DNA of 64,000 nucleotides from NCBI GenBank assembly GCA_031261325.1, contig JAISKH010000064.1, forward strand, positions 1-64,000. The letters are read 5' to 3'. Shown here one piece after another: positions 2,537 through 4,601 of the stretch. The notes below the pieces were generated by a model that saw nothing but the letters and a program-made list of their open reading frames with translations, had not been told where the DNA came from and did not search any database. How positions within the stretch are numbered: the first letter of the stretch is position 1; every line of letters starts with the position of its first letter. The DNA is from Oscillospiraceae bacterium (GTDB lineage Bacteria; Bacillota; Clostridia; Oscillospirales; Oscillospiraceae). The translations under genes were made by a program, and so were the position numbers.

Positions 2537-3697
2537 TTGACCGAGGTTGTCAGCATAAAATTCAACGAAAACAGCAGGATATATTTCTTTGACCCGCAGA
2601 GCTTGCGTGTCGCAAAGGGCGACAGCGTTGTCGTCGAAACCGCGAACGGTCTTGAGTACGGCATGTGCATCTATGGCAACCACGAGGTGGACGACAAGCT
2701 TGTGGTGCAGCCGTTTCGCCCCGTTGTACGTCTCGCGACGGACGCGGACAAGAAACGCATGGAGGAAATCGCGCTCCGCAACGACGAAGCGTTTGAGGTG
2801 TGCCAGAAGAAGATTCTCGACTTTGGGCTTGACATGAAGCTCGTGTCCGCCGAGCTGAACTTTGACGGCAGCATGATTGTGTTTTACTTTACGTCCGAGA
2901 CGCGCGTGGACTTCCGCGAGCTTGTGCGCTCCCTCGCGTCGCTGCTTAAAACCCGCATAAAGTTGCTGCAAATCGGCGTGCGCGACGAAGCGAAAAAGGT
3001 CGGCGGACTCGGCGTATGCGGCAAGGCGTTTTGCTGCTCGCAATTCCTGACGGATTTCCACCCCGTATCCATAAAAATGGCGAAAACGCAGGGGCTTTCG
3101 CTCAATCCCGCGAAAATTTCCGGCTCGTGCGGGCGGCTTATGTGCTGCCTGAAGTACGAGGAAGCGGCGTATGAGGATTTGGTTAAGCACGCACCGCGCG
3201 TCGATTCATTCGTCGAAACGCCCTACGGCAAAGGCTCCGTCGTTAACGTCAACCTCCTGCGCAGCAACGCAAAGGTGCGGCTTGAGGAGGGTTCGGACTT
3301 GACGCTGAAAACCGTGTCGTTCGACGATATTGATGTGCTCGGCAACAAGTCGCGCCGCGCGGAATACGTTGCCGCCAAGGCGGAGGGCCGCTTGCTTGAG
3401 GCGGGCTTCACACCGTCAAAGCCGCCACCCGCGCCGACGCTTACCTCCGACTTCGGCGATGCTACTCCCCCGCGCCGCCCGCAGCAGTCGCAGCAATCGC
3501 AGCGGCAAAACAGCAATAACCGCAAGCGTCCCGCGCAAAAGTCCGCCGACGGCGCAAAGCAGGCGCAACCCGACGCAACCGAAAACGCTCCGCGCCCCGC
3601 GCAGGGTAATAAGTCGGGCTTCCGCAATCATCGCGGCGGTCAAAACCGCAAGCCGTCCGCCGCGGGCAACTCCGACGGGGGCAACACTTCGCGCTGA
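2537..3697 (+). CDS. ricT: PSP1-domain protein, RicT/YaaT family
   Basis: A 386-residue protein with the PSP1 domain across roughly residues 60-270. The signature is a Cys-rich core, VCGKAFCCSQFL and then CGRLMCCLKYEE, which in RicT/YaaT proteins takes part in iron-sulfur cluster binding in the RicAFT (Y) complex. That complex affects RNase Y-dependent mRNA maturation and sporulation or competence in Bacillus; this is family knowledge. Translation starts at TTG 2537, eight bases after an AGAGG ribosome site at 2524-2528. From about residue 290 the tail is low-complexity, rich in P, Q, N, R and K, and probably disordered. Such tails vary within the family and could bind RNA. ricA and ricF are not in the window. 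Confidence 0.85.
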   Translation: MTEVVSIKFNENSRIYFFDPQSLRVAKGDSVVVETANGLEYGMCIYGNHEVDDKLVVQPFRPVVRLATDADKKRMEEIALRNDEAFEVCQKKILDFGLDMKLVSAELNFDGSMIVFYFTSETRVDFRELVRSLASLLKTRIKLLQIGVRDEAKKVGGLGVCGKAFCCSQFLTDFHPVSIKMAKTQGLSLNPAKISGSCGRLMCCLKYEEAAYEDLVKHAPRVDSFVETPYGKGSVVNVNLLRSNAKVRLEEGSDLTLKTVSFDDIDVLGNKSRRAEYVAAKAEGRLLEAGFTPSKPPPAPTLTSDFGDATPPRRPQQSQQSQRQNSNNRKRPAQKSADGAKQAQPDATENAPRPAQGNKSGFRNHRGGQNRKPSAAGNSDGGNTSR

Positions 3698-3719
3698 CGC
3701 GAAATATCTCGTTATGCAC

Positions 3720-3748
3720 TTGACGGTTGCCGAAATTTTTGTTATAAT
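3720..3748 (+). promoter_or_regulatory. Sigma-A-type promoter for the response regulator
   Basis: TTGACG at 3720-3725 and a perfect TATAAT at 3743-3748 are separated by 17 bases. The predicted start, about 3755, coincides with the left arm of the hairpin listed next. Confidence 0.75.
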
Positions 3749-3754
3749 GCACAG

Positions 3755-3796
3755 CAGAGCAACAAGGGCGTTCTCGCCTTTATTGCTCTGTTTTTA
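3755..3796 (+). terminator. Terminator-like hairpin in the leader of the response-regulator gene
   Basis: CAGAGCAA at 3755-3762 pairs with TTGCTCTG at 3783-3790, with an inner GGGCG/CGCC pairing and a T-run at 3791-3795. It lies between the promoter at 3720-3748 and the ribosome site at 3802-3808. It may be the terminator for ricT read-through, or a 5' stem or attenuator of the regulator's own mRNA. Confidence 0.6.
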
Positions 3797-3816
3797 TATG
3801 TAAGGAGGTTTGCGAT

Positions 3817-4533
3817 TTGTGGACTGTCCTAATTGTTGACGGGAACCCCGATAGGTGCGCAACTGTGCGCGCATTCCTTGCGGCGCAAGGGCTAAATGTA
3901 ATATCCGCCGAGTCTGCGGACGAGGGCGCGCGGTCTGCGTTCGCGTCCAACCCGTCGCTCGTTGTGATTGAGCAGAGCTTACCCGACGGGCGCGGCATCG
4001 ACCTCACGGAGACGCTTCACGCAAGCTCGGACGTGCCGATTTTGCTGCTGCACGACGCGCACGACGAGATGCAGACCATCATGACGCTTGACCGCGGCGC
4101 GGACGATGTGCTGTCGCGCCCGTTCGGGTTGGGTGAGCTTGCGGCGCGCATACACGCGCTTATACGCAGATACGAGCGGGTTTTGCGGTACCTTCAGTTC
4201 GCGGAGCTTGCGTTGCAGGGAGTTTCAGGTTCCGCGCAGAATGACGAGATGTTCGTCGTGGACACGGGCGCGCGCATAATTACGATGAACGGCGAACCGC
4301 TTTCGCTCACATCAAAGGAGTTTGAGCTGCTGTCGCTGTTCCTCCAAAACCCGGGGCGCGTGTTCGCTAAGAACGAGCTTTATTCGCGTCTCTGGGACTC
4401 GGAGTTTGAGGGCGACACGCGCACGGTCATGGTGTACATCAGTCGGTTACGCAAAAAGATTGAGCTGCACCCCGAAAAGCCGGAAATGCTTATAAACGTT
4501 TGGGGCTTGGGCTATAAGTATAACCCATGTTAG
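3817..4533 (+). CDS. OmpR/PhoB-type response regulator with atypical receiver
   Basis: A 238-residue protein with an N-terminal receiver domain (about residues 1-120) and a C-terminal winged-helix DNA-binding domain (about 140-236; SLTSKEFELLSLF and TVMVYISRLRKKIE are typical of Trans_reg_C). The start is TTG 3817, eight bases after a strong AAGGAGG at 3802-3808. The receiver lacks most of the phosphorylation site: the acidic pair is a single Asp8 followed by Gly, the phospho-acceptor position is Glu52 (VVIEQSLPDG), the switch Thr is His (LLLHDAH) and the conserved Lys is Arg (LSRPF). This points to a regulator that is constitutively active or controlled without phosphorylation. No histidine kinase lies nearby. 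The targets are unknown. Confidence 0.85.
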   Translation: MWTVLIVDGNPDRCATVRAFLAAQGLNVISAESADEGARSAFASNPSLVVIEQSLPDGRGIDLTETLHASSDVPILLLHDAHDEMQTIMTLDRGADDVLSRPFGLGELAARIHALIRRYERVLRYLQFAELALQGVSGSAQNDEMFVVDTGARIITMNGEPLSLTSKEFELLSLFLQNPGRVFAKNELYSRLWDSEFEGDTRTVMVYISRLRKKIELHPEKPEMLINVWGLGYKYNPC

Positions 4534-4549
4534 TGTTTTCGGAAATACG

Positions 4550-4577
4550 AAAAGAGGTTGCGGCGCAACCTCTTTTT
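4550..4577. terminator. Bidirectional terminator between the response regulator and nudC
   Basis: A perfect 12-base stem (4550-4561 with 4565-4576) has a three-base loop and A-run and T-run flanks, so it works on either strand. It separates two convergent genes. Confidence 0.85.
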
Positions 4578-4601
4578 GTGCGTTTATGTATGCCTGCGCG
4601 T

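Follow-up and report, generated by a model that had tools for sequence, protein, structure and literature searches.

The gene at positions 3817–4533 of the window, by which we mean the whole 64,000-nt stretch of Oscillospiraceae DNA analysed here, encodes an OmpR-family response regulator that is, judged by its sequence, an aspartate-less (pseudo-)receiver regulator, an already known protein kind. New here is the conserved, promoter-adjacent and terminator-like leader that precedes this gene and its orthologues in all four of the species in which it was found, an unusual arrangement. We propose, with about even confidence, that the protein is an orphan, phosphorylation-independent OmpR-type transcription factor controlled at the level of its synthesis through read-through of that leader. 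The initial annotation of this DNA had recognized a degenerate receiver; the leader hairpin, which points to control by synthesis, was absent from it.

An aspartate-less receiver without a partner kinase

The predicted protein joins a PF00072 receiver (Response_reg, residues 4–112, a weak match) to a PF00486 winged helix (Trans_reg_C, residues 159–234, a strong match), the domain combination of OmpR/PhoB response regulators (Table 1). Its gene lies downstream of ricT, which ends at 3697, and is convergent with nudC; it is monocistronic, as a terminator separates it from nudC. The source organism is a gut bacterium. The neighbouring ricT (2537–3697) has a TTG start in the window and in most of the genus genomes read, and this rare start codon seems conserved.

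Table 1. Features of the regulator gene and its leader (positions in the window)
Feature	Position	Strand	Details and basis
SigmaA-type promoter	3720..3748	+	TTGACG-N17-TATAAT with TG extension; 11/12 consensus matches; equivalents in 4/4 orthologues
Terminator-like leader hairpin	3755..3790	+	CAGAGCAACAAGGGCG-TTCT-CGCCTTTATTGCTCTG; starts 6 nt after the −10 element; −21.9 kcal/mol fold; covariation
T-run following hairpin	3791..3797	+	sequence; T-run in 4/4 leaders
Ribosome-binding site	3802..3808	+	AAGGAGG; sequence
OmpR-family pseudo-receiver response regulator	3817..4533	+	238 aa, TTG start; translation
Degenerate receiver domain	3826..4152	+	PF00072, 56.6 bits; alignment with paralogues
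Receiver key residues	E52 3970-3972, H79 4051-4053, V98 4108-4110, R101 4117-4119	+	also D8, G9
Winged-helix DNA-binding domain, conserved	4291..4518	+	PF00486, 93.8 bits; 65–85% identity within clade
Terminator 3′ of the regulator gene, before convergent nudC	4546..4580	+	16-pair stem

The receiver was aligned with 15 canonical paralogues drawn from the window genome and its relatives, all of which carry the acidic pair, the acceptor Asp, the switch T/S, the Y and the K (15/15). The window protein has G9 at the second acidic position (DD2), E52 at the acceptor, H79 at the switch T/S and R101 at the Lys position. The initial annotation had thus read the site correctly in describing an acidic pair reduced to one Asp (D8), a Glu acceptor, His for Thr and Arg for Lys. 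Two further changes are D80 at T+1 and V98 at the K-3 position, which is normally aromatic, and with these residues the Y-T coupling pair has also been lost. The domain is still scored as a receiver and lacks the acceptor Asp and key catalytic residues, which is how aspartate-less or pseudo-receivers are recognized in sequence, and its residue set is ordinary for that class: aspartate-less receivers make up roughly 2% of the OmpR-type family, Glu is their commonest acceptor replacement (26%; PMC4395418), and loss of the second acid and a change of Lys to Arg are common among them (PMC4395418, PMC12632262). In an AlphaFold model built from four sequences the receiver was fair (pLDDT mostly 79–91); the C-terminus was poor, and for this reason dimer geometry is not argued from the model.

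The claim that no kinase gene is adjacent also stood. The contig carrying the regulator (C78) has no HATPase_c match, with 32 such matches elsewhere in the genome, and the gene is an orphan response regulator in having neither an adjacent nor an evident partner kinase.

Receiver loss across four orthologues

The regulator gene was found in 4 of 12 genus genomes, namely the window genome and those designated G007 (50% identity), G010 (45%) and G008 (66%, counted over the DNA-binding part); of the remaining eight, in which no copy was found, several are incomplete and three are >90% complete. A profile run over 400 family genomes gave the fourth orthologue 245 bits vs 201 bits for the best unrelated regulator. 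No orthologues beyond the four came from these 400 genomes or from a genome-collection scan, and viral contigs held one weak match to the DNA-binding domain. In a tree of 56 regulators the four orthologues, which represent four species of a single Oscillospiraceae genus, form one clade (support 100/99), the sister of which (98/91) is a canonical UBA1320 regulator (L043:3965-4702, 39% identity). This nearest canonical relative of the clade has an intact D-D-D-S-F-K set and a PAS-HisKA-HATPase kinase directly downstream, unlike the window regulator. A clear genus orthologue of that kinase was not found; among the matches listed only the catalytic core aligned, at ~26–38%, and never the PAS part.

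Read across the clade in the order window, G007, G010 and G008, D8 is retained in all four, DD2 is G, S, G and G, the acceptor is E, E, E and deleted, the T position is H, G, S and deleted, K-3 is V, F, F and L, and the Lys position is R, K, K and E, the last two G008 letters coming from an uncertain alignment beside the deletion. E52 and a non-acidic DD2 are common to the three full-length orthologues (3/3), and their recurrence in independent orthologues rejects sequencing error or recent local decay of the window receiver. None of the close orthologues has the intact D-D-T-K set that the initial annotation had named as the finding that would count against it, and its reading of an orphan pseudo-receiver regulator is supported by the Glu in every orthologue that retains the position. 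As for the shared E/H/R set it had asked about, the Glu holds and the His and Arg do not, given the letters found at positions 79 and 101. On the most economical reading of the alignment, the change of D to E and the loss of DD2 would have come first, in the common ancestor, and T, K and the aromatic residue would have been lost later and separately.

In the 162 aa encoded by the G008 orthologue (L040:4911-5396), the DNA-binding domain is intact and an in-frame loss has taken out the greater part of the receiver. Its β2 joins a remnant near β5, there is no Response_reg match, and Trans_reg_C scores 99.9 bits; AlphaFold gave low confidence before residue 60 of this protein and good confidence over most of the DNA-binding domain. 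If it is not an assembly error, the gene is a natural receiver-less version of the regulator.

Identity within the clade is 34–62% for the receiver vs 65–85% for the DNA-binding domain, while in the same genomes three groups of canonical orthologues reach 75–89% and 67–98%, respectively. For receiver identity in the clade vs the canonical sets, three genome pairs gave Fisher p values of 2e-9, 4e-13 and 2e-6, which are descriptive as alignment columns are not independent; the DNA-binding domain showed no such difference. By these alignments the receiver of the clade is shown to evolve far faster than the DNA-binding domain, the latter being under strong constraint. The lost receiver of G008 and the eight genus genomes, several of them incomplete, in which no copy was found could also be taken for terminal decay toward a pseudogene, but we regard this as highly improbable, with all four frames open, the DNA-binding domain conserved to the degree just given, an unchanged recognition helix among the orthologues, and both promoter and leader kept.

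The conserved Glu bears on another reading, in which it mimics phosphorylation and E52 locks the receiver into its active, dimeric state, leaving the regulator always on. Glu can indeed serve as a phosphomimic (PMC4395418), it is kept in the three full-length copies, and the G010 copy (D-G-D, E, S, F, K) comes close to the active-site set of Clostridioides difficile CmrT, which is inferred to be constitutively active (PMC12548384). However, phosphomimicry is thought to act through T and K (PMC12632262), and a Glu combined with a retained T/S, K and aromatic K-3 is seen only in G010 (S, K, F); the window copy has lost all three (H79, R101, V98), and G008 lacks the whole acceptor segment yet keeps its DNA-binding domain. 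In addition, the single change E53A made little difference to CmrT (PMC12548384), and ChxR does not owe its activity to its Glu (PMC4395418). We consider this reading unlikely: an always-on Glu phosphomimic is possible for the clade ancestor and poorly supported for the window protein. The suggestion that the regulator is always on may itself be right, but Glu as the cause is doubtful, since T and K are gone.

A promoter-adjacent hairpin ahead of each orthologue

Upstream of each of the four orthologues there is a TTGAC(A/G)-N17-hexamer promoter with a TG extension, followed in the same order by hairpin, T-run, ribosome-binding site and start codon. The gap between the −10 element and the stem is 6, 5, 6 and 9 nt, and the isolated hairpins have fold energies of −19 to −24 kcal/mol; the T-run is weak in G010. 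Two-sided changes occur in 7 of 19 consensus stem pairs, including inner pairs changed from G-C to A-U, a covariation signal that rests on four sequences and includes some changes in loosely aligned outer pairs. A promoter, a terminator-like hairpin and a T-run conserved before the start codon have the layout of a leader attenuator, and the hairpin presumably terminates transcripts.

The gene upstream of the regulator is ricT in the window and G007 and nifJ in G008, and in G010 the contig edge is reached; because the upstream genes differ, the hairpin accompanies the regulator gene itself and does not serve any single neighbour as its terminator. It does lie about 57 nt past the ricT stop, and generic gene-end terminators reach 45 bits with the leader model, as would be expected if the hairpin simply terminated the preceding gene, next to an incidental promoter-like site. 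We disfavour that reading as quite improbable: it fits poorly with the different upstream gene in G008, with a promoter and a promoter–hairpin spacing kept in 4/4, with the lack of room for another promoter between hairpin and start codon in 3/4 orthologues, and with the near absence of the layout elsewhere in the 925 kb scanned. That scan for promoter, gap, hairpin and T-run (both strands, some overlap) returned five distinct sites, four being these orthologues and one another site, and since its settings were chosen after the four leaders had been seen, it serves as a specificity check and not as an independent test. Within the 64-kb window the layout is unique.

With a covariance model of the leader the genus yielded no additional strong match, the best, in G006, being an unrelated terminator, and the exact dyad pattern of the hairpin has no copy elsewhere in its own genome. 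The element was also sought before other genes, a candidate that was rejected: the weaker family and genus matches inspected, including eight family sites that were read, were ordinary gene-end terminators with no promoter or regulator gene. Identity with a known riboswitch or leader was likewise rejected, as Rfam gave no match above the gathering score in window positions 3600-3900 and only a tRNA in three orthologue loci. The UBA1320 sister gene (L043:3700-3990) has a terminator-like hairpin, AAAGGCGCTTTGAAAAATTCAAAGCGCCTTTTT, shortly before its start, without a clear promoter ahead and with a sequence unlike that of the clade's hairpin. Regulator gene and leader together (stretches before the gene at window 3698-3816 and L040:4780-4910) occupy differing sites in the genus, following either ricT or nifJ, which gives the impression of a self-contained unit that has moved. 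The neighbourhoods (ricT/nudC, ricT/unknown, nifJ/XRE and flagellar genes) differ in all orthologues, and the conserved target gene set that the initial annotation had proposed to look for was not found among these neighbours; nor did a regulon or a binding site emerge.

Stabilizing 5′ stem-loops are known in Bacillus subtilis, and OmpR-type factors usually bind direct repeats. Both facts matter for a further possibility, that the hairpin is a 5′-end mRNA stabilizer or a DNA operator for autoregulation instead of an attenuator, the regulator itself being as we propose. The stem begins only a few nt from where transcription is expected to start, and at the DNA level the inverted repeat can equally be read as a dyad placed like a repressor site; an operator of this form would, however, depart from the usual direct repeats, a T-run follows the stem in 4/4 leaders, and there is no second strong copy of the element elsewhere in the genus. 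We think this rather doubtful.

Control by synthesis and comparison with known regulators

Under our preferred reading, control at synthesis by leader read-through, the receiver of the clade ancestor lost its cognate kinase, its acceptor Asp (to Glu) and its second metal-binding acid, as comparison within the clade and with its relatives shows, and then decayed at differing speeds while the DNA-binding domain stayed constrained. The regulator would bind DNA as soon as it is synthesized, and its receiver would contribute to dimerization at most; in the three full-length orthologues, where the domain is still recognized as a receiver, it may have kept a function. The strong promoter would yield a transcript whose 5′ end is the terminator-like hairpin, as the geometry of the leaders shows, and output would be set by synthesis, presumably by attenuation in response to a signal and by regulated read-through. 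In three of the four orthologues the stretch from hairpin to start codon is too short to hold a second promoter, so that expression would need read-through. A classical antiterminator would have to form in RNA ahead of the hairpin, and a hairpin at the extreme 5′ end is preceded by none; one therefore has to assume either a protein factor or a constant rate of read-through. More tentatively, we suggest that the regulator shed its receiver switch and that control passed to a minimal attenuator whose read-through is governed by some protein, which might be the regulator itself.

A 2025 review treats the switching of pseudo-receiver regulators as an open question and counts synthesis-level control among the options (PMC12632262). 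If this more tentative suggestion is true, the clade would show signal input on its way from protein phosphorylation to RNA, one species having physically deleted the receiver. The series from G010 (nearly intact) through the window protein (heavily altered) to G008 (receiver deleted), with one leader hairpin in all, makes the four orthologues a natural series for asking whether control passed from phosphorylation to synthesis.

ChxR of Chlamydia and HP1043 of Helicobacter are orphan OmpR-type regulators that work without phosphorylation, as proposed here for the window protein, and the acceptor of ChxR is likewise Glu; they belong to unrelated lineages, and dimerization has been shown for them. 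CmrT of C. difficile (receiver structure 2qzj) resembles the clade in belonging to the OmpR family, in having the D-G-D motif and a Glu at the acceptor, which it shares with the G010 orthologue, and in being made under an RNA leader, in its case the c-di-GMP riboswitch of the cmrRST operon (PMC12548384). In contrast to the window protein, it keeps T and K, its gene shares an operon with CmrR and the kinase CmrS whereas the window gene is monocistronic, and the window leader has no riboswitch match in Rfam. By sequence rank CmrT is not an orthologue: 2qzj, a receiver-only chain whose score is limited by its length, matched with an E-value of 2.7e-21 and ranked behind many canonical regulators. 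With aspartate-less and pseudo-receiver regulators in general, the window protein shares a fold recognized by PF00072, the replaced acceptor Asp, the lost second acid and an orphan gene (PMC4395418, PMC12632262); the window clade differs from them in combining one loss of the receiver segment with a conserved, promoter-adjacent hairpin leader.
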